Source of the DNA: Treponema sp.
GTDB lineage: Bacteria > Spirochaetota > Spirochaetia > Treponematales > Breznakiellaceae
Length of the DNA stretch: 62,303 nt
NCBI GenBank assembly: GCA_009788065.1
Contig: WQSF01000005.1
Span: 1-62,303 of the forward strand
Direction: 5' to 3'
Part shown: positions 2,681 through 32,000 of the stretch, piece by piece
Layout: each line of letters starts with the position of its first letter
How positions within the stretch are numbered: position 1 is the stretch's first letter
Program-made: the position numbers and the translations under genes
The notes under the pieces: generated by a model
Databases searched by the model: none
What the model was told of the DNA's origin: nothing
The model's input: only the letters and a program-made list of their open reading frames with translations

Positions 2681-3169
2681 TTAATCTTCCGTTCCGCTTT
2701 GAGAAATCATTCTTTCGGTAATAAAAAGAAGCTGTCTGCCGCTGACATTCATTGCCGGAGAGGTTCTTCCCTGAATTACTTTTTTAGCGGTCAATTCACG
2801 GTATGAATAATGCGCTGCTAAAGCGGTTGTGTTTTTGGTTATTGAGTACATAACGCCGCCTTTCATACCGAATGAACGCATAACCAATAGAGAAATCGCG
2901 TCCAGTCGCGCGGTATCATCTGCGTCAGCTTTTTTAGGTAGCCATTTTTGTTCTTGCGCATAACGAAAAGCATCCTGTGAATCGAAAGTCGCATACGCAT
3001 CGGAGGCTTCAAGCAGGAAACGCGCAGCCTGTAAATATGTAACCGCATCAGCCGCCAGCAATGTTTCGATTTCTTCCGCTACCGGCAGTCCTGCTGCCGC
3101 TGACTGCGCTTGCAGAAAAGCCGCGGATATAAAGAACAAAAGAACAGCCAAATGACGTTTTAATTTCAT
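2681..3169 (-). CDS. Small exported protein, spirochaetal hypothetical
   Basis: The protein has 162 residues with a signal peptide of about 22 residues (ending LQAQ). The mature part is largely helical: AAGLPVAEEIETLLAADAVTY, RFLLEASD, LDAISLLVMRSFGM, and a basic end ELTAKKVIQGRTSPAMNVSG. The layout loosely recalls S-layer-homology-like repeats, but no canonical motif is present. AAAGGA precedes the ATG. The gene is joined by a 1-base gap to the barrel-like protein downstream, so it may be a periplasmic partner of it. Function not recognised. Confidence 0.6.
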   Translation of the reverse strand: MKLKRHLAVLLFFISAAFLQAQSAAAGLPVAEEIETLLAADAVTYLQAARFLLEASDAYATFDSQDAFRYAQEQKWLPKKADADDTARLDAISLLVMRSFGMKGGVMYSITKNTTALAAHYSYRELTAKKVIQGRTSPAMNVSGRQLLFITERMISQSGTED

Positions 3170-3232
3170 AAGTAAAATCCTTTAAGGTTCCTGTCTGACC
3201 GCGTGAATGTGATCGGACAGGAATAATTCACA

Positions 3233-3832
3233 TTACAAGGCTGATGTATCTTTCGTTGCTTCCGCCGAATAATTAGAATCAGTATATTCAAGATCGTCTA
3301 CTATTCCGCCAAGAGCTTTTACCTTTACTCTAAGCTGTGACGCCATTATTGAGTTATTTTTTGCGCCGGATGTGTTATCTCCGGGCGTATTCCACTCGGG
3401 CATCAAGGTTATTTCAATTTTATTTTTTCCGATTATCTCAACCCTGCCGTTTGCGCCCTTATTTGAGTCCGCTGTCGAGTCCCATATAGTGCTGGTATCG
3501 CCTACTGTAAAAGGACCGTTTCTTTGCGCAATTTCTTCAGTTGTACCGGTGAATGTTAATCCAAACGCGGTTCCTTCTTTGGTATTTATCAAGCGATTGG
3601 CTGAACCGCAGCCTACACTTACCGAATGTATTTCATAACCTGACGCGTTCGCTACCTCATCCCAAGTAATAACCATTATTTCTCTGGTCGGACTTTTGAC
3701 GCTATCAATTTCAATTTTAATATTATTTGGCGCTGTAAGCTGTCCGCCTTCCAAATCGCCGCAGCTTGCCGTAAAAAGTACGATTGCCGGTATCATTACG
3801 ACAATCCTGATCAATTTATATAAATTTTTCAT
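3233..3832 (-). CDS. Lipoprotein with fibronectin-III-like region (paralogue of 244-765)
   Basis: I place the start at the ATG at 3832-3830, because AAGGAG lies just upstream there and a signal peptide begins (MKNLYKLIRI...). Reading further upstream in frame adds only an implausible leader. The 199-residue product has lipobox FTASC (Cys24), then APNNIKIEI, VITWDEVANASGYEI, GCGSANRLINTKEGTAF and IEITLMPEWNTPGDN. All of these have counterparts in the lipoprotein at 244-765. The two copies flank the FecR, barrel and 162-residue genes. Role unknown. Confidence 0.72.
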   Translation of the reverse strand: MKNLYKLIRIVVMIPAIVLFTASCGDLEGGQLTAPNNIKIEIDSVKSPTREIMVITWDEVANASGYEIHSVSVGCGSANRLINTKEGTAFGLTFTGTTEEIAQRNGPFTVGDTSTIWDSTADSNKGANGRVEIIGKNKIEITLMPEWNTPGDNTSGAKNNSIMASQLRVKVKALGGIVDDLEYTDSNYSAEATKDTSAL

Positions 3833-3911
3833 ACATATCTCCTTGATGTATAGAGTTTCTATAATGTGAAATTTTAAACAAAATAATTTTAGGCTTAAAG
3901 CAAGCCCAATT

Positions 3912-4319
3912 CTATGCAATCGGAGGTTTAAAAATAAAGTAAACAATATCTACAGGCGAAAAACAATTTTTAGAATCAATACCTGATATTTCCGATAAAA
4001 CGATGTTATTAAAAACAGATGAACGTAAATCGCCTTGAATATTTCTAAAATTACCGCTCTTTGGCGATGTAAAATGACTTTCGTGAGATCCTTCCTTACT
4101 GCAGCACCCTTTCGTAACCGTCACAGCTATCTGCGAAGAGCAGCAGCTCGATAAATTCATTTCCGCGGCAGCCGCTTCCATTTCCGCATTAGCGCAGCCG
4201 CATGTACAACTGTCTTTGCAGTCAATAATCGGAGCTACAACATAAAATGATACATGAAACATCATAGAAACAAGAGCGGAGAGTGTAACAACTTTATAAA
4301 TGATGCTTCTTCCTGTCAT
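3912..4319 (-). CDS. Small Cys-rich membrane-anchored protein
   Basis: The protein has 135 residues. A hydrophobic N-terminal segment (about 10-32) is followed by a cysteine cluster, DCKDSCTCGCANAE, then SSCCSSQ and KGCCSKEG, and it ends in FIFKPPIA. The arrangement (N-terminal anchor, CC motif, PP near the end) is weakly reminiscent of the HYC_CC_PP proteins found near metal-handling genes in Bacteroidetes, but I would not assign it firmly. It lies 19 bases after the DUF2318 gene, in a cluster with a permease and DUF4418. Metal binding or thiol chemistry on the envelope is an inference from cysteine content and neighbours. Confidence 0.6.
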   Translation of the reverse strand: MTGRSIIYKVVTLSALVSMMFHVSFYVVAPIIDCKDSCTCGCANAEMEAAAAEMNLSSCCSSQIAVTVTKGCCSKEGSHESHFTSPKSGNFRNIQGDLRSSVFNNIVLSEISGIDSKNCFSPVDIVYFIFKPPIA

Positions 4320-4338
4320 GTTTTATCCGCGCACCGCG

Positions 4339-4878
4339 CTAATCGCAGCAGCTTCCTTTTTCTCCCATCGTCTTCATTACCGCAAACATGGCTTTCGCCT
4401 TTAAAAAATATTCTTTTGTAATTGTAAGCGTAGAAGCCGTTACGGTTCTATTTTCCGCTGTAAGCGGCTCGGGATGACACGCGTCGGATGAGAGTTGAAT
4501 TTTATCCATAGTGTACATTCTCTCGGTTCCGCATAAAGAAACAAGTTTGGGACCCGGTATCTGCATAAAATAACCGAGCGCTTTTGGATCGTTGTTTCTT
4601 TGGTAGCAGTAATGGCAGGTATTAAAGGCAGTGCGTATTGAGCCGTCCGGCGCTTTTACGACCATAATTTCGATTTGCATCCCGTCTGCTTCTACAGGAT
4701 AAAAATCGATAAATTCTTTTATATCAGAAATTTGAATAACCAAATCCTTATCGACGGTTTTTGGTTTTTTCTGGTTGAGCGCGTTCTGATCATCAGTACC
4801 GCCCATAGCAAATGCAGATACGCCGCACATAAAAACTAACAAAGCCGCGGAAATTACTGTTAATATTTTACGTCTCAT
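4339..4878 (-). CDS. DUF2318-domain protein (FtrD-like) ending SCCD
   Basis: The protein has 179 residues with a signal peptide of about 24. The DUF2318 signature is visible: KAPDGSIRTAFNTCHYCY (Cys88, Cys91), then SLCGTER (Cys116) and DACHPEPL (Cys134). Family members normally carry a second CxxC pair (CNxCG). Here only one Cys of that pair remains, so the cofactor site may differ. In Campylobacter and Bordetella, DUF2318/FtrD proteins accompany Ftr/P19 iron uptake and MacB-like ABC genes. The C-terminus is GEKGSCCD, the same last four residues as the FecR-domain protein. It sits 23 bases after the DUF4418 gene. A role in metal or electron transfer is inferred. Confidence 0.75.
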   Translation of the reverse strand: MRRKILTVISAALLVFMCGVSAFAMGGTDDQNALNQKKPKTVDKDLVIQISDIKEFIDFYPVEADGMQIEIMVVKAPDGSIRTAFNTCHYCYQRNNDPKALGYFMQIPGPKLVSLCGTERMYTMDKIQLSSDACHPEPLTAENRTVTASTLTITKEYFLKAKAMFAVMKTMGEKGSCCD

Positions 4879-6575: not shown

Positions 6576-8141
6576 CTATTTATTAATTATTATGGAAGCT
6601 TCCTCGTATGCCATATAGTTAGTGAAAGCATACGCCGTTATTTTACGGGGACCCTCGGCTATTTCTGACGCATTAATAACTGTTTCTTCGAAATCGCCGT
6701 TTACAATTTTAAAAAATATATCATCAATATATATATCAACTTTAGACGTAGTCGCCGAAACATTAAGGTTAAGTTTCAAGTATCCATCAGCGAATTGCGC
6801 TGATTCAATTTTAACGGCAGGCTTTTCAAGCTGCGCGGCTGATAATCTTGTAGTAGAAATACTGCCGTCAAGACCGGTAGTTATACTTCCGTTAAAATTC
6901 ACACCCGTTCTTAAATCATGAACTTTTTTATTACCAAGCACAGTGATATTTCTCGGATTACCGCGCGCAGCCAATTTCTTGCCGTATTTTGTACCGACTT
7001 CGCCTCTTTCGGTTAAATATTTTAAATGACCGACCTTTTTATAATTTACTTTAATAATATTTGACATAACAACATCAATCGCAAGACCGTCTTTTGAAGC
7101 TAATATACTATTCATTTTCTTAAGAGCGGAAGCGTCACCAGCAGGCGGAAGAGGTCCTTGATCTACGCCTTGCAGAGCGTCCATAACTACGAAATCCGCC
7201 GGCATAACAGAATAATAATCGGCAATCCATTTATGTAAACCATTTGACTCTGTATGAGGTATCCTGAAATTTCGCCCTATATCGCTGGCGGAATTTCCGT
7301 ATATCCTTGGCGGTGTTGCGCCTATTGATATATTTTTTATTGCGCCGGTTGTACCGGCAGTTGTATGAAGCTTAAGCACAGGGATACTGATTAATGCGTT
7401 TGCGTTATACATTTCTTTGGCTACAAAATAATTTCCCTGACCGTCATAACTTTTATAAACCGGAGACGTTTGGTTTCCGTTATAATCAGATTGATTGAAA
7501 GATGTTTTAAAAACAGGGTTAGTTAATTTTATTTTAAGAACGTCTGAAGGAATCGAAGCAGGATTAGGATTCGTCCAGTAAGTACCGCCGACAGCATCAA
7601 GAGTAAGAATTTCATTAACAGCAGAAAGATTTGTTAGGTTGTAACCTACATTTGCATACTGCTGCGAGGTATTACCTTTACCTGAACTTTCCATTACAAT
7701 AATTCTGCCTGAGGAACCGACGATTGCTCTTACATTTTCCGCGACAGCCTGCACAACACGCCAGTCCGTTACTATGCCGTTGGGAGCTGCCTGAGTTGCC
7801 GTATTCAACGCGCCGGCGGGAATTTTAGTTCCGCCGGGCCATGACCAGTTGTAAATTGTAGTAATAATATTTGGTTTTAAAACAACCGTATCTCCTGATT
7901 TTATTATGCCTTGAAGTCCGCCGGCAAGAGCGATTGCTTCATCTACCAATACTTTTATACTTGCGTATGTATGTTGTGTAACATTTGTTACGGTTGTGGA
8001 CTGTACAAGCGAGACTATTGAACTAATACCGTCGTGCGGAAGCCTTGGGGCGTTTAAATCTTCATCTTCTTCTTTATTATTGTCGCATGAAGCAAAAACA
8101 GAAAAAAATATAAGGATCAATCCAAAAATATATTTTTTCAT
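6576..8141 (-). CDS. DUF362-domain lipoprotein
   Basis: The protein has 521 residues. The signal peptide ends in VFASC, so it is a lipoprotein. The DUF362 domain fills most of the chain: GDTVVLKPNIIT, IVMESSG, NALISIPVLKLHTTAGTTGAIKN, FVVMDALQGVDQGP and SKDGLAIDVV. About 100 residues after it form a beta-rich domain. DUF362 proteins often carry ferredoxin Cys clusters, but here I see none, so it should not bind an Fe-S cluster through that route. It lies 30 bases after the CBM9-like gene and 10 bases before the permease. Known roles of DUF362 are few; none can be assigned. Confidence 0.8.
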   Translation of the reverse strand: MKKYIFGLILIFFSVFASCDNNKEEDEDLNAPRLPHDGISSIVSLVQSTTVTNVTQHTYASIKVLVDEAIALAGGLQGIIKSGDTVVLKPNIITTIYNWSWPGGTKIPAGALNTATQAAPNGIVTDWRVVQAVAENVRAIVGSSGRIIVMESSGKGNTSQQYANVGYNLTNLSAVNEILTLDAVGGTYWTNPNPASIPSDVLKIKLTNPVFKTSFNQSDYNGNQTSPVYKSYDGQGNYFVAKEMYNANALISIPVLKLHTTAGTTGAIKNISIGATPPRIYGNSASDIGRNFRIPHTESNGLHKWIADYYSVMPADFVVMDALQGVDQGPLPPAGDASALKKMNSILASKDGLAIDVVMSNIIKVNYKKVGHLKYLTERGEVGTKYGKKLAARGNPRNITVLGNKKVHDLRTGVNFNGSITTGLDGSISTTRLSAAQLEKPAVKIESAQFADGYLKLNLNVSATTSKVDIYIDDIFFKIVNGDFEETVINASEIAEGPRKITAYAFTNYMAYEEASIIINK

Positions 8142-8171
8142 ATTATTCTCCTTGTCATTACATATAAAAAA

Positions 8172-8993
8172 CTATTTTGCCAGATTCAATTTGGCAAATA
8201 CACTCGCGTTCTGATACGCGACATTTTTATTTTCACCGGAAATTGACATACTGCCTATAAAATATTCGCGTTTATTGGATTGACCTGCGTTGCAATAAGC
8301 AACAGCAAAACCCATCGTTTTATTATTAACCAATTTTTCACATTCATAATTTACATCGCCGCTAACAGGATAATTTTTATTAAATACTTTCATTTCGATT
8401 TCCCATATGTATAAATTAGTACCATTCGCGTTGTTTCTATTTCCAATTTTATATTTCATATGATGGTTACGCGCTATATACCCATTTTTAAAATTTGAAT
8501 TGCCGCTCTGACCTGATACATAATCCATCACGTGAACACCATCGTAACTCATGTGATATGCAAACGCATTATTGTTATTTTCGTGCATGCCGCCTTTTCC
8601 GTCTTCGTTAATAAATAACTCCAAACAGTCATCGTTATATATCTCGTTATACGGGTTTGCTATTCTTGTAAGACTTAAATAAGTATCCATAATTTCTACC
8701 AAATAATATAGCCTGTCTTCTGTCCAAACAATCTTGAATCTACCCGAATAAGTTCCCGCGGGAGGAGGCGTCAGCTTTGACTGGCTGGCATTTCCGTCTC
8801 CAAGCCATATTTTGTCAATTGGCTTCCATGCCGCTTTGCTCCACGCCGGATCATCTCCTACGCCGTCAATTACCGGAGCAGACTCGGCAAAGTATGCCGT
8901 GTAATCATTTTGTTCTGAGGTAGTGTCAGGGAGAGAATCGCAGGTTGTCAAACAAATACAAAAAATTAAAACAATTAAAAAAACGGATTTCAT
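8172..8993 (-). CDS. CBM9-like lipoprotein
   Basis: The protein has 273 residues. The signal peptide ends in CLTTC, a spirochaetal-type lipobox. The mature part reads YFAESAPVIDGVGDDPAWS, FKIVWTEDRLYYLVEIMD, NDDCLELFINED and WEIEMKVF. This is the typical order of strands in the carbohydrate-binding module 9-like fold, known from xylanases and from exported cytochrome-related and sensor proteins. It may bind sugar, or use the fold for something else. It is the first gene of the minus-strand cluster; no clear promoter was identified upstream. Confidence 0.75.
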   Translation of the reverse strand: MKSVFLIVLIFCICLTTCDSLPDTTSEQNDYTAYFAESAPVIDGVGDDPAWSKAAWKPIDKIWLGDGNASQSKLTPPPAGTYSGRFKIVWTEDRLYYLVEIMDTYLSLTRIANPYNEIYNDDCLELFINEDGKGGMHENNNNAFAYHMSYDGVHVMDYVSGQSGNSNFKNGYIARNHHMKYKIGNRNNANGTNLYIWEIEMKVFNKNYPVSGDVNYECEKLVNNKTMGFAVAYCNAGQSNKREYFIGSMSISGENKNVAYQNASVFAKLNLAK

Positions 8994-9256: not shown

Positions 9257-9330
<74 letters not shown>

Positions 9331-9473: not shown

Positions 9474-9872
9474 ATGTGGCATCCAAAAATGGCGGATTTT
9501 GATGGACGCTTGAAAAAGCTTTTCGATGAAGTTGACGCTTATATCGAAGAACTTTACGGTGACAGATACCCGTTAAACCCTGTACGTCCAAAACGGGGAA
9601 CAACTGCTAATCCCGAAGCGGACGGTCTCTTTAACATAGGCGCCAATTTCACACCAGGCTTTACTTCGGAGCTGGGACGCGGCTATTTAATCAATGTTTC
9701 AATATCCACAATGGAAAAAGTTGACGAAAATGTACGCCGTGAAATTTACGAAGCCGCAACTGAAAAAGTTAAAGAACTTCTACTCGTTTATTTTCCTGAA
9801 CGCGAATTGACTGTCCGGCATGACGGTAATTTTTTTAAAATACAGGGAGATTTTAATTTGGGTGATGTTTAA
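9474..9872 (+). CDS. Conserved-looking hypothetical protein, probably leaderless
   Basis: The protein has 132 residues with no signal peptide or membrane segment. It is charged and looks cytosolic: FDGRLKKLFDEVDAYIEELYG, then GANFTPGFTSELGRGYLINVS, and a C-terminal NFFKIQGDFNLGDV. A second ATG in frame at 9489 (MADFDGR) is possible. The ATG at 9474 is favoured because a -10 box ends six bases upstream, leaving no room for a ribosome site. It is convergent with vsr and their ends overlap by 20 bases. I do not recognise the family. Confidence 0.65.
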   Translation: MWHPKMADFDGRLKKLFDEVDAYIEELYGDRYPLNPVRPKRGTTANPEADGLFNIGANFTPGFTSELGRGYLINVSISTMEKVDENVRREIYEAATEKVKELLLVYFPERELTVRHDGNFFKIQGDFNLGDV

Positions 9873-10365
9873 TGTCGTTATGCGAATATTCAGGTTCAAT
9901 TTCAACAGCATATAAATATTTCATCTCTTCTTCAGGATAAAATATTCCATTTTTAATGTTGTAAATCGCTTCTTTAATTTCATTCACACAGCCGGAAAGG
10001 TTGTTTTTAATATCGTTGCCCCAATAACGAAAAATAACCCAGCCCATCCTTTCCAGCTCTTTTTCTACTTTGTTGTCGCGTTCTATATTTCGTTCAATCT
10101 TTTTTACCCAGTAATCATTGTTGGTTTTTATCTCATCTTTTCTGTTTACCCAATTTTTACCATGCCATAATTCGCCGTCGCAAAATATCGCAATCTTATA
10201 TTTAGTAACCGCGATATCCGGCTTACCCGGCAGTTTAAAATAGTTCTTTCTATAACGAACACCTTCACGCCATAACGCCTTGCAAAGTAAAATCTCTATC
10301 GAAGTATTTTTACTTCTTATACGCGACATACATTTATGCCGCTGTTCCGGCGTCAGCGTATCCAT
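9853..10365 (-). CDS. vsr: Very short patch repair (Vsr) endonuclease
   Basis: The protein has 170 residues. It begins MDTLTPEQRHKCMSRIRSKN, followed by SIEILLCKALWREGVRYRKN, LPGKPDIAVTKYKIAIFCDG and ELWHGKNW, which are the standard Vsr motifs including the catalytic Asp in GKPDI. Vsr nicks 5' of T in T:G mismatches that arise by deamination of 5-methylcytosine. It is normally encoded beside a cytosine-C5 methyltransferase; none is present here, so this is an orphan. The C-terminal 30 residues (FYPEEEMKYLYAVEIEPEYS) extend past the usual end. Confidence 0.92.
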   Translation of the reverse strand: MDTLTPEQRHKCMSRIRSKNTSIEILLCKALWREGVRYRKNYFKLPGKPDIAVTKYKIAIFCDGELWHGKNWVNRKDEIKTNNDYWVKKIERNIERDNKVEKELERMGWVIFRYWGNDIKNNLSGCVNEIKEAIYNIKNGIFYPEEEMKYLYAVEIEPEYSHNDIKHHPN

Positions 10366-27498: not shown

Positions 27499-27894
27499 TT
27501 ATTTTTTTCTAAAGATAAAAATATTAAGCCCGGAATAAATTATAACAAAAATTTCTATAACCGTTAAAGCGGGAATGGCGACAAGACGGCAGTTCATATT
27601 TTTAAGCGCGCAACCGCCGATAATTACATGGGTAACAAGCAGGGCGATAATCCCTGTTAAACATATTGCGATTGAAATGCCAAGCTGTGTTTTAGGATCG
27701 TTATATAGAACAGAGAAGATTCCCAAACCGGCGATTATTATTCCTATGCCGCGCAGGGTTCCTGTCATCCAGTAGCAGGTCGGGTATTCGGAACAACATC
27801 CCGCGCTGCAGGCTTTAAATATAAAATAAGGACCAAAGGCGATCAGCAAACCGGAAACAGCGACTAACGCGCAAAATATAATTGTTCTTTTCAT
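27499..27894 (-). CDS. DUF4418 membrane protein (second copy of tandem pair)
   Basis: The start is the ATG at 27894-27892, which overlaps the upstream stop as ATGA; earlier in-frame starts would run deep into the preceding gene. The 131-residue protein has four membrane helices and the loop FKACSAGCCSEYPTCYWMTG, a denser Cys cluster than its partner, corresponding to the DUF4418 PC...MxCxW pattern. It is translationally coupled to the first copy and followed by the ABC permease. It may be a membrane adaptor or metal-binding subunit of that transporter; function not established. Confidence 0.8.
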   Translation of the reverse strand: MKRTIIFCALVAVSGLLIAFGPYFIFKACSAGCCSEYPTCYWMTGTLRGIGIIIAGLGIFSVLYNDPKTQLGISIAICLTGIIALLVTHVIIGGCALKNMNCRLVAIPALTVIEIFVIIYSGLNIFIFRKK

Positions 27895-28295
27895 GATTTT
27901 GTTTTTTTCTCCAGATAAATCAAATTGAAAACCGCTCCCGCGGCAAGTAAGCCGCAGACAACCATCAGAGCTGGAAAAGTGACTTTTTGGCAAACTGCGC
28001 CCTCATGTTTGCAGAGATCCAAAAATATGTCCTGCGGAAACGAAATAGCGACAATAGCCGACATAAATATCCCGAGAGTTAATCCAAGTTGAATTTTAAC
28101 GTCAGATAAAAGAATAATCGCGACGCCGAGCGCGGCGATTAAAATTCCTACGGCGATTTCGGCGCGTCCGACCCAAAAACAAAACATGAGCCTATCATCT
28201 GCAGGTTCGCAAATTTTAAATATAAATTGCGGACCAAGCGCAATTAATAAGCCGAATAAAACCGCGGCGCCGCCGCTAATAATGTTCTTTTTCAT
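27891..28295 (-). CDS. DUF4418 membrane protein (first copy of tandem pair)
   Basis: The protein has 134 residues with four membrane helices. The loops carry FKICEPADDRLMFCFWVGRAE and DLCKHEGAVCQKV, matching the Cys positions of DUF4418. It is parallel in architecture to the next gene (GLLIALGPQFIFKIC against GLLIAFGPYFIFKAC), so the two arose by tandem duplication. The stop overlaps the next ATG (ATGA). It is preceded by a 39-codon membrane peptide gene 22 bases away. Confidence 0.8.
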   Translation of the reverse strand: MKKNIISGGAAVLFGLLIALGPQFIFKICEPADDRLMFCFWVGRAEIAVGILIAALGVAIILLSDVKIQLGLTLGIFMSAIVAISFPQDIFLDLCKHEGAVCQKVTFPALMVVCGLLAAGAVFNLIYLEKKTKS

Positions 28296-28584: not shown

Positions 28585-28794
28585 TTACAAACAAGCGCAT
28601 TCAGCACCATACGCATAATTATAGCTATTAGCACCAAAACATTGATACACAGAACGATCACAATAACTACCGCCAATAAGTCTATATTCGCACTTGCCGT
28701 CACCGGGGCAATCAGGATTGGCGCAGCTTACTAACACCATTCCTCCAACCAAAATTGCAGCTATAAGAGCTACGATAACAAATTTGTTCTTCAT
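28585..28794 (-). CDS. Small Cys-rich lipoprotein, copy A
   Basis: The protein has 69 residues. The leader (MKNKFVIVALIAAILVGGMV then LVSCANPDC) gives lipobox LVSC with Cys24 lipidated. The first 29 residues are identical to copy B at 29095. After GDGKCE the chains diverge; copy A reads YRLIGGSYCDRSVYQC, then FGANSYNYAYGAECACL. Seven Cys in the mature part suggest disulphides or metal binding. AAGGAG precedes the ATG, with a CTGCGG...CCGCAG hairpin just upstream. It has its own terminator. Function unknown. Confidence 0.78.
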   Translation of the reverse strand: MKNKFVIVALIAAILVGGMVLVSCANPDCPGDGKCEYRLIGGSYCDRSVYQCFGANSYNYAYGAECACL

Positions 28795-29094: not shown

Positions 29095-29295
29095 CTAGCA
29101 TTTGCACTTGGTTTCTGCGCCTGGCATACAATCAAAAATGCTTAAATCATTGTCCCAATAACACTGTCCACCATTAAGGGGAGTCAACTCACACTTGCCG
29201 TCACCTACACAATCAGGATTGGCGCAGCTCACTAACACCATGCCTCCAACCAAAATTGCAGCTATAAGAGCTACGATAACAAATTTGTTCTTCAT
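29095..29295 (-). CDS. Small Cys-rich lipoprotein, copy B
   Basis: The protein has 66 residues with the same 29-residue start as copy A (leader, LVSC lipobox, then ANPDC). From there VGDGKCELTPLNGGQCYWDN, DLSIFDCMPG and AETKCKC differ in nearly every non-Cys position while keeping the Cys order. AAGGAG precedes the ATG. The conserved export leader with a variable Cys-rich core is like what is seen in secreted toxin, pheromone or defensin-like families, but also follows from simple duplication and drift. Function unknown. Confidence 0.78.
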   Translation of the reverse strand: MKNKFVIVALIAAILVGGMVLVSCANPDCVGDGKCELTPLNGGQCYWDNDLSIFDCMPGAETKCKC

Positions 29296-29713
29296 AAAGA
29301 ACTCCTTTTTTTAGCGGTCGGATAACATCCAATCCCGCCATCTTATGTATACTCCAACGGAGTATAATAAAAGCTCGTTTAAATTAAACGGCATTTTACC
29401 TTTAAATAGTACCATTGTTACGCATTTTAGTCAATAAATAAGAAAATTTAATGCTTAATATAAACGAGGGTATAAATTCGGCAAAAGGCGGCTGGTGGCT
29501 CAAATTATATCTTAATATACTATATTTTTTATTAATTTTCCACAATACAAATTACTATAAAATAATTTAAAATCTAATAATTAATAAATATAAGTAAACC
29601 GCATTTATTTTCTATATCACCATTCATTTTCTGTTTTTTAAGAAAATATATTGACTAATTATTTAAATATAATAATAATTGTTATTGTGGATAGTATCGT
29701 GGAGCAATACCTA
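29296..29713. other. A/T-rich intergenic region between Cys-rich lipoprotein B and the unknown pair
   Basis: No gene is seen here. Near the lipoprotein is an imperfect GCGG...CCGC stem (29313-29340) and a perfect inverted repeat TATACTCC-aac-GGAGTATA (29348-29366), about 55 bases before its ATG. From about 29370 the sequence turns very A/T-rich and leads into a plus-strand promoter at 29651. Confidence 0.5.
29651..29679 (+). promoter_or_regulatory. Promoter for the A/T-rich two-gene cassette
   Basis: TTGACT (29651-29656), a 17-base spacer and AATAAT (29674-29679). It overlaps a TTG that could otherwise be taken as a start codon. The GGAG-supported ATG at 29714 lies 34 bases downstream, which fits this promoter. 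Confidence 0.45.
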
Positions 29714-30493
29714 ATGCCTGCAAAAACCAGCCATTCTTGGATAAATATGTTTCGTCCTCCTTATAGTAAAGAACTTCCTTGTTCTTACAAGGTTAGGGGA
29801 CCTTTTAATAATTTTCAAAAAGATATTGATATTTTATATGATACGTTCATGGAAAGTTATAATATTTATAAAGCCGGCGAAATGCCCATCTCTTCAGAAG
29901 ATGAATTTAAATCTTTTGGCATTCCCGGTCCTTCGCAGTATAAAGCTTTTAACGAACTTTTTGATTTTTTTGAAGATGAAGAATTTGAGTTTTTAAAATA
30001 TAATAGCTTCTATTGCTATGATTTAACTCAAAAGAAAATGCAATTTGAGAGAGGCATACTTGAATTTTTTGAAAAATTATTGGACTTCGATTTTATCGAT
30101 CAGGATAAAAAGGTTATTTTTTCCAGTGGTACATTTTATAAAGGATACCTAAAAATACGTAATAGAATTCTAGATATTTTAAAAACACTTCATACAGAGA
30201 AAGAAATTAAAATTCAAATCTTCACTAATTGCAAGGAAGAAGAAATTAAAGGGTATGATGAATTTATAAAACAAATTAAAGGTACATCTCACTTTGGCTT
30301 GAAAGACAGGATCCCAATTCATTTTATACAGGCTGGCAATGATTATTTTTTTATTGAATTTCCTCACGCGGAAGAAGTAATTGTTAGATTAAATATGTTT
30401 TTAGATCTAAAAGAGATTAAATATAAAACAGGTTTTAATAAAGCCGATGTAGAGCAATATTTTTACAAACTAATTCAACAGGCTTTTAATTAA
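29714..30493 (+). CDS. Unknown protein 1 of A/T-rich pair
   Basis: I place the start at ATG 29714 because GGAG lies 9 bases upstream; an in-frame TTG at 29651 coincides with a -35 box. The 259-residue protein has no signal peptide or membrane helix and is rich in Phe, Lys, Ile and Glu. Features: MPAKTSHSWINMFRPPYSKE, acidic FDFFEDEEFEFLKY, then a beta-alpha stretch KKVIFSSGTFYKGYL...IKIQIFTNCKEEEIKGY and RIPIHFIQAGNDYFFIEFPH. The last part resembles the alternating strands of phospholipase-D-like or Rossmann-type folds, but no HKD or other catalytic motif is seen. One base before the next gene. Function unknown; base composition suggests transfer. Confidence 0.65.
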   Translation: MPAKTSHSWINMFRPPYSKELPCSYKVRGPFNNFQKDIDILYDTFMESYNIYKAGEMPISSEDEFKSFGIPGPSQYKAFNELFDFFEDEEFEFLKYNSFYCYDLTQKKMQFERGILEFFEKLLDFDFIDQDKKVIFSSGTFYKGYLKIRNRILDILKTLHTEKEIKIQIFTNCKEEEIKGYDEFIKQIKGTSHFGLKDRIPIHFIQAGNDYFFIEFPHAEEVIVRLNMFLDLKEIKYKTGFNKADVEQYFYKLIQQAFN

Positions 30494-30494
30494 A

Positions 30495-31082
30495 ATGGAA
30501 AAAACTATTATATTTTTTGAACCACAAAATAATAAATTTTTTATTAAGATTGCGAAAATTTATCGTGATCTCATTATAAAAAATTATACGGATGCGATAA
30601 AAATGTTAAAAAAAGAGGATTCAATAGAAGGAAGTCCCATACATGAAAAATTATTAAAAAATTATTTTAATGATTTAATCTTTCCAGCCTGTGACTTTAA
30701 TGATGCGTTAACATGCGATCGTATAACATGTACCTTCGAAAAATGTCCGGTGTTAACAGGAGATCAGAAAGATCAAGTGATACGATACATAAAAAATGCT
30801 AAAAAAACTCTTTCTTTTCGTTCAAAATCTATTACGGATAATATTATTATAAATAAGATAATAAATAAATGTCTTGTTGCGCTTAATAGTAAAAAAGTGA
30901 AATCTATATCTCATGAACACGGAAAATCTTTTGATTTATATTTAAATGCAATGAATAAAATTAACAATGATAATGAATTTGAAGAATTTGTTTATGTTTC
31001 ATCAAATAAGAATAGCGATTATCCAAAATTCAGAGCCAGAACCACATTACAACCGCTTAATGAATGTGCTCAGTATCAATAG
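30495..31082 (+). CDS. Unknown protein 2 of A/T-rich pair
   Basis: The protein has 195 residues, basic, with no signal peptide. It begins MEKTIIFFEPQNNKFFIKIA and contains a possible metal-binding stretch PACDFNDALTCDRITCTFEKCP (Cys spacing C-x7-C-x4-C-x4-C) and a basic helix YIKNAKKTLSFRSKS. The start has no strong ribosome site, but the gene is one base from the stop of the preceding gene, so coupling is likely. Codons are A/T-ending throughout, unlike both flanks. I do not recognise either protein; a small mobile or defence-type module is one idea, without direct proof. Confidence 0.6.
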   Translation: MEKTIIFFEPQNNKFFIKIAKIYRDLIIKNYTDAIKMLKKEDSIEGSPIHEKLLKNYFNDLIFPACDFNDALTCDRITCTFEKCPVLTGDQKDQVIRYIKNAKKTLSFRSKSITDNIIINKIINKCLVALNSKKVKSISHEHGKSFDLYLNAMNKINNDNEFEEFVYVSSNKNSDYPKFRARTTLQPLNECAQYQ

Positions 31083-31280: not shown

Positions 31281-32000
31281 ATGGAAACAGTTCTGGAAAT
31301 AGATAATCTGGAAAAAAGTTATGGCGGGTGCGAAGCGTTGCGCGGTGTAGATATGTCGATTTCATCCGGGCAGATTGTGGGCTTGCTGGGTCCTAACGCT
31401 TCCGGGAAAACCACTCTGCTAAAAATTATGGCTGGTTTGCTTCAGCCGACCAAGGGCGCTATTCGCTACCATAATAATACGGCGCCGGGGCCTCAAGCGC
31501 GAAAAACTATCGGTTTTTGTCCCGATACTTTATCATTCCAGCAATGGATGAAAGTACGCGACGCGTTTACTTTTTTCCGCGAAATGTACGACGATTACAA
31601 GCAAGAACGAGCGGACGAACTTATGCGTATTCTGGAACTTCAAAATATTAAAGATAAACAAATTAATAAATTGTCCAAGGGGATGAAGGAACGCCTTGCA
31701 CTTGGGCTTACATTTTCGCGCGAAACCAGACTCTATTTATTAGATGAACCGCTTGACGGAATCGATCCTGTCGGTAAAATGCGCGTAATAGACGCGATAA
31801 TCGCCATGCGGCCGAAAGACGCGTCAACTTTGATCTCTACGCATCTTGTTAAAGATATAGAACGTATATTCGACAGCGTTTATTTTTTATCCAAAGGAAA
31901 GATTGTGTTTTCCGGCGATTGCAACACGTTACGCGAAAATCGCGGTCAAACTGTAGAACAGGCATATTTGGAGGTGTTTCTAAATGAAGGCTCTATTTAA
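31281..32000 (+). CDS. ABC transporter ATP-binding protein (exporter type)
   Basis: I take ATG 31281 as the start (METVLEIDNLEKSYGG), where the domain begins; in-frame starts further upstream add a non-homologous leader. The 239 residues contain Walker A GPNASGKT, Q-loop GFCPDTLSFQQ, signature LSKGMKERLALG, Walker B LYLLDEPLDG and H-loop STH. It is of the YtrB/CcmA class that works with separate permeases. It overlaps the next gene by 17 bases. Substrate unknown; the tiny lipopeptide encoded at the end of the operon is a candidate cargo or partner. Confidence 0.88.
   Translation: METVLEIDNLEKSYGGCEALRGVDMSISSGQIVGLLGPNASGKTTLLKIMAGLLQPTKGAIRYHNNTAPGPQARKTIGFCPDTLSFQQWMKVRDAFTFFREMYDDYKQERADELMRILELQNIKDKQINKLSKGMKERLALGLTFSRETRLYLLDEPLDGIDPVGKMRVIDAIIAMRPKDASTLISTHLVKDIERIFDSVYFLSKGKIVFSGDCNTLRENRGQTVEQAYLEVFLNEGSI

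Follow-up and report, generated by a model that had tools for sequence, protein, structure and literature searches.

The question raised by this locus is what two adjacent A/T-rich genes encode, how they came to lie where they do and what they may do together. They are located in the window, by which we mean the whole 62,303-nucleotide stretch of DNA analyzed here; it is contig 5 of a genome of 2.14 Mb that consists of 98 contigs and is about 70% complete. The first gene, P1 (29714–30493, plus strand), encodes 259 residues from its probable start, and the second, P2 (30495–31082, plus strand), encodes 195 residues. As the sequence-only reading had described, the two open reading frames are one base apart: the stop codon of P1 occupies 30491–30493 and the ATG of P2 begins at 30495. 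The same reading let the first gene begin at 29651, where a TTG codon would give a protein of 280 residues. However, the −35 box of a promoter-like sequence, TTGACT-17-AATAAT (29651–29679, plus strand; −35 at 29651–29656 and −10 at 29674–29679), opens with this very TTG, so that the promoter-like sequence and the beginning of the longer frame overlap. A likelier start of P1 is therefore ATG 29714, which lies nine bases downstream of GGAG (29701–29704, plus strand), the probable ribosome-binding site of the gene. Since most of the first ∼40 residues of P1 align to gaps in its relatives, even this start is not certain. The promoter-like sequence, which had been proposed as a plausible promoter, is the top plus-strand match in the cassette stretch (10 of 12 positions); owing to the abundance of such matches in this A/T-rich DNA (23, compared to 13.2, sd 3.6, in shuffles), it stays plausible only.

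The composition of the pair is clearly different from that of its surroundings. The GC content of 29714–31082 is 0.275, whereas 43 other window pieces of equal length average 0.422 (sd 0.030) and do not fall below 0.338. Third-position GC is 0.23 in P1 and 0.18 in P2, whereas it is 0.43–0.56 in seven nearby genes, which agrees with the A/T-dominated codons noted before. Both predicted reading frames are truly coding, as homologues at 23–36% identity are open in two other genomes. A minus-strand gene remnant, which had been suggested downstream of the pair, found no support: the longest open piece there is 28 residues, it matches no Pfam family and its DNA has no plasmid match. When the 28-residue piece was compared with 113 loci, nothing beyond chance was found except the window's own copies.

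Relatives of the two proteins are rare. P1 occurs in 3 of 390 genomes of the order; among 195 genomes of the family, three P1 matches were accepted of seven listed, including the window genome, and P2 is intact in three and present as one fragment, of six listed. Draws from the phylum (392 genomes) yielded no further accepted P1 or P2. A two-peptide-pattern scan of one genome per species (84,980 species), which distant relatives could escape, returned the same two relatives, Treponema sp. isolate Emb289P3bin141 (locus L009) and Spirochaetaceae bacterium isolate Nl494_bin56 (locus L008). According to PMC7024585, the Emb289 sample comes from the termite Embiratermes neotenicus, and 54 MAGs are placed in the termite cluster Treponema I. 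From this genus-mate, we infer that the window organism comes from a termite gut as well.

Several weaker matches were dropped. The P2 matches in G015 and G019 (E 8.7e-5 and 3.4e-4) lie inside a 481-residue enzyme that is nearly identical in both genomes and is presumably a tryptophanase-type protein. The P1 matches in G025, G021, G351:C42 and G207 (E 0.005–0.04) were removed before counting, and so were those of the phylum searches, in G484 and G466 for P1 and in G639 and G578 for P2. Because the weak matches are partial, lie in other proteins or contain internal stops, they were taken as probable chance matches.

P1 of the window is 32% identical to that of L009 and 36% identical to that of L008, and the latter two share 56% identity. 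For P2, the identity is lower, at 23–27% to the window copy and 42–43% among the others; since L009 holds two P2 copies, this comparison may be between paralogues. P1 is followed by P2 in all three intact loci, with a gap of 1, 1 or 2 bases, so the survey of co-occurrence that had been proposed earlier finds the genes travelling together, in a pairing that, with only three intact loci, rests on few events. As predicted proteins, P1 and P2 are shown by these loci to form two real families that occur together, P1 first, at unrelated chromosomal sites.

To place the window copy, we compared it with the loci of relatives around the resident neighbour of the pair, an ABC transporter ATPase gene (31281–32000, plus strand). 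The permease matched 11 places outside the window; 10 were used, from 9 genomes of the genus, and a partial one at a contig end in G015 was left out. The ABC ATPase is 73–80% identical in all 10 loci, and P1 and P2 are present in none of them. A GntR gene lies directly upstream of the ABC gene in 7 loci; the remaining 3 loci break off there at the contig edge and are uninformative on the site. The window contains no GntR match, and P1–P2 occupies the GntR position. In relative G009, an AAA_14/DUF4143 ATPase gene (L043, 5005–6240, minus strand) adjoins the GntR–ABC genes, so this position accommodates a different gene in at least one further genome.

The relationships among the P1 proteins also depart from those among the HtpG proteins. 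HtpG, compared over about 290 residues, is 84% identical between G000 and G011, 82% between G011 and G355 and 81% between G000 and G355. For P1, the identity is 32% in the comparison inside the genus and 56% in that across genera, where HtpG gives 84% and 82%. Transfer from different sources would give such a discordance, and so would old paralogues that were sorted differently. Taken together, the GntR gene at the site in all seven informative loci and the discordance between P1 and HtpG point to a horizontally moving two-gene module.

The neighbours of the three intact loci differ. GC content in L009 is 0.36 for P1, 0.32–0.33 for P2 and 0.39 for the stretch; in L008, it is 0.42 for P1, which is only mildly low, 0.33 for P2 and 0.48 for the stretch. 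In L009, the A/T-rich DNA extends beyond the pair and includes five small genes that have no Pfam family above the cut-off. Upstream of P1 in L009, at 1857–2298, two small ORFs carry the repeated motif NLERMREDAYYNQAAA and have no Pfam family above the cut-off. In L008, a gene at 7502–8248 (minus strand), convergent with P1–P2, encodes a 248-residue protein with HETSH (HExxH), without a Pfam match above the cut-off or a PADLOC match. No integrase or transposase was noticed among the window ORFs when these were checked by eye, and the repeats near the cassette are only imperfect and mostly A/T-rich, with no target-site repeat identified. P1–P2 thus displays the patchy presence, odd composition, discordant relationship and unrelated sites of a mobile pair, and no transfer element was identified. 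The earlier proposal of a horizontally acquired pair is borne out by the absence of the pair from this site in relatives, its GC content and the HtpG comparison; homology to a housekeeping family, which would have spoken against it, was not found, nor was the pair found at the site in relatives.

Known families gave no lead to function. Pfam, PADLOC and PHROGs were queried with three P1 and four P2 proteins, and NCBIfam with P1 and P2 of the window. No match above the curated cut-offs was obtained in Pfam or NCBIfam, toxin–antitoxin families included, and no PADLOC model matched at E up to 10, consistent with the earlier impression that neither protein has a recognizable family. The PHROGs matches, none better than E 0.009, were all to families of unknown function, and a PDB sequence profile search gave best E values of 0.65 and 1.1 for P1 and nothing for P2. 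DUF7418 (E 0.14), Stomagen (0.038), bPH_7 (0.038), an NCBIfam flavodoxin (2.8) and phrog_19819 (0.0094) were dropped, being under the curated cut-offs where these exist. Searching 72,556 plasmid and 50,697 phage records by tblastn with P1 and P2 of the window, P1 of L009 and P2 of L008 revealed no relative, and five viral-contig scans revealed no P1 or P2 relative. A thin literature search, for proteins without a name, found no mention of the pair. Neither protein family is represented in the libraries searched, whereas mobile two-gene accessory modules are common as a kind.

Two fold readings were examined by sequence. The alternating strands around FSSGTFYKGYL and RIPIHFIQAGND had led to P1 being considered PLD-like or Rossmann-like. 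In contrast to PLDc_2 (PF13091), however, all three P1 proteins lack the HxKxxxxD (HKD) motif, and indeed any HxK; the HKD motif is absent from all four P2 proteins as well. The hhalign probability of P1 against PLDc_2 (26 units) is 0.9%, so the PLD-like reading finds no footing at this level. For P2, a PIN domain (PF01850) was considered because E-x-x-N lies in a strand near the N terminus and D in one near the C terminus. The PIN domain has three to four acidic residues, whereas P2 has only two invariant ones, E9 and D175, and its hhalign probability against 23 PIN domains is 0.1%. The cross-comparisons gave 1.2% for P1 against PIN and 0.6% for P2 against PLDc_2. Three-row controls gave 99.9% for PLD and 100% for PIN; these are within-family comparisons and hence easier. 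The domain sets were those kept after loci with a contig edge or stop were dropped (26 of 30 fetched for PLD and 23 of 30 for PIN). A PLD or PIN relation is without sequence evidence, and a shared fold could lie at lower similarity.

Across the loci, P1 is 238–259 residues and P2 195–209 residues in size. Alignment of P1 with its relatives reveals the conserved blocks PGPSQYxAF, SGxF, RxPIHF, EFPHxE and RLNMFL. P2 contains the conserved blocks FxExxN near the N terminus and DYxxF near the C terminus; E9, N12 and D175 are among its further conserved residues. A four-cysteine stretch had been pointed out in P2: Cys66, Cys74 and Cys79 are indeed invariant, but Cys84 varies among relatives, and the fourth invariant cysteine is Cys191 instead. 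These four conserved residues could hold a structural metal. The basic character ascribed to P2 applies to the window copy (pI 9.0) and to that of L008 (8.5), but not to the two copies of L009 (5.2 and 5.6). The Kyte–Doolittle mean over 19 residues peaks at 1.53, so a strongly hydrophobic stretch is absent; inspection by eye showed no leader, and a catalytic signature was not recognized.

The number of P2 genes varies. L009 carries two, at 3132–3761 and 3808–4404, which are 43% identical. In L008, a frame from 7282, 14 bases past the P2 stop, encodes 14 residues resembling the start of P2 and then a stop. Apparently, this is a second P2 gene broken after 14 codons; the frame alone reaches only E 0.6 with the P2 profile, and what supports this reading is where the frame lies and that it shares 10 of its 14 residues with the second P2 of L009. 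Genome G351 contains, in L026 from position 4474, a 58-residue P2 tail that the P2 profile matches at E 3e-14; immediately before it is a DUF1706-like start, whose match (E 0.00028) falls short of the cut-off. An HNH nuclease gene lies 1.5 kb upstream of this tail, directly after a C5 cytosine methyltransferase gene; the interval from the nuclease gene to the tail contains a gene for a ClpP-like SDH-type protease and a 67-residue ORF. This methyltransferase neighbourhood is a single case and belongs to a broken P2 copy; it lends only indirect support to the defence or toxin-type role suggested earlier.

Around the other copies, PADLOC found no model for seven neighbours, of which five lie upstream of P1 in L009 and two close to P1–P2 in L008. 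Of ten genes around the window copy, three matched: HtpG to TmtA (7e-11), and two ABC ATPases to mad3 (3e-28 and 4e-24), in addition to weaker matches. We read these as ATPase domains that housekeeping genes would share with such models, not as a defence system.

P1–P2 is at present a well-supported but uncharacterized mobile gene pair. Our preferred reading, put forward tentatively and at less than even likelihood, is that of an accessory pair spread horizontally among spirochaetes related to termite-gut Treponema, whose products may form a coupled complex, with conflict with phages or plasmids, that is, defence, as its most likely role. The conflict reading draws on the mobility, the coupling, the P2 duplication and the one decayed copy near restriction–modification-like genes. 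Against it stand the PADLOC searches, which matched neither P1 or P2 nor the seven neighbours in L009 and L008, the absence of copies from the phage, plasmid and viral sequences searched, the lack of a recognized catalytic signature and the small number of intact loci. If both proteins work as one cytoplasmic complex, translational coupling would keep the P1:P2 ratio fixed. P1, being more conserved and having an invariant polar cluster (RxPIHF, EFPHxE and RLN), would be the working or effector core. P2, the partner, which evolves faster and has a second copy in one locus and, it appears, a broken one in another, might recognize the trigger or hold P1 in check. A bolder reading, which we hold doubtful, makes the pair a so far undescribed conflict system of spirochaetes with two components, built from two families with no known relatives: one or two fast-evolving P2 proteins with a cysteine site would set the trigger or target of a conserved P1 effector. 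If the pair is a conflict system at all, two unclassified protein families join that repertoire and the variable P2 gene number offers a handle on specificity.

The nearest rival to the defence reading is a selfish toxin–antitoxin-type, or toxin and immunity, pair, in which P1 would be toxic and the P2 copies would neutralize it, so that addiction would give persistence and defence would be incidental. We regard it as possible, on the doubtful side. P1–P2 shares with type II toxin–antitoxin operons the make-up of two small, coupled genes and a patchy distribution through horizontal spread, and a duplicated, fast-evolving second gene suits a neutralizing partner; the duplication in one locus, however, also sets P1–P2 apart from those operons, as do the absent family match and the size of the proteins, both larger than in most type II pairs. 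P2 was found once on its own, as a tail, and P1 never, which does not discriminate for this reading. The low GC content, the patchy spread and the A/T-rich stretch with small family-less genes around the L009 copy would also suit cargo of a mobile island, such as a phage moron or an integrative element, serving that element in anti-defence or maintenance; but with neither integrase nor transposase noticed in the window, imperfect repeats near the cassette and searches of phage, plasmid and viral collections that returned no relative, this origin appears unlikely. Ordinary metabolic or regulatory accessory genes, exchanged horizontally and unconnected with conflict, would explain why neither P1 nor P2 matches a defence family, and the position of the pair in place of GntR upstream of an ABC transporter makes a regulatory swap conceivable. 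No common neighbours pointing to one pathway were seen among the three intact loci, and we consider such a role improbable.

Some further features of the window were observed on the minus strand. Tandem small lipoprotein-like genes are located at 28585–28794 and 29095–29295 and share a 110-nucleotide stretch that is 94% identical, 501 nucleotides apart. Tandem DUF4418 genes (27499–28295) adjoin genes for an FtsX-type permease and an ABC ATPase. The gene at 9853–10365, which we take to resemble a Vsr-type endonuclease, lies near tRNA-Ala (9257–9330).
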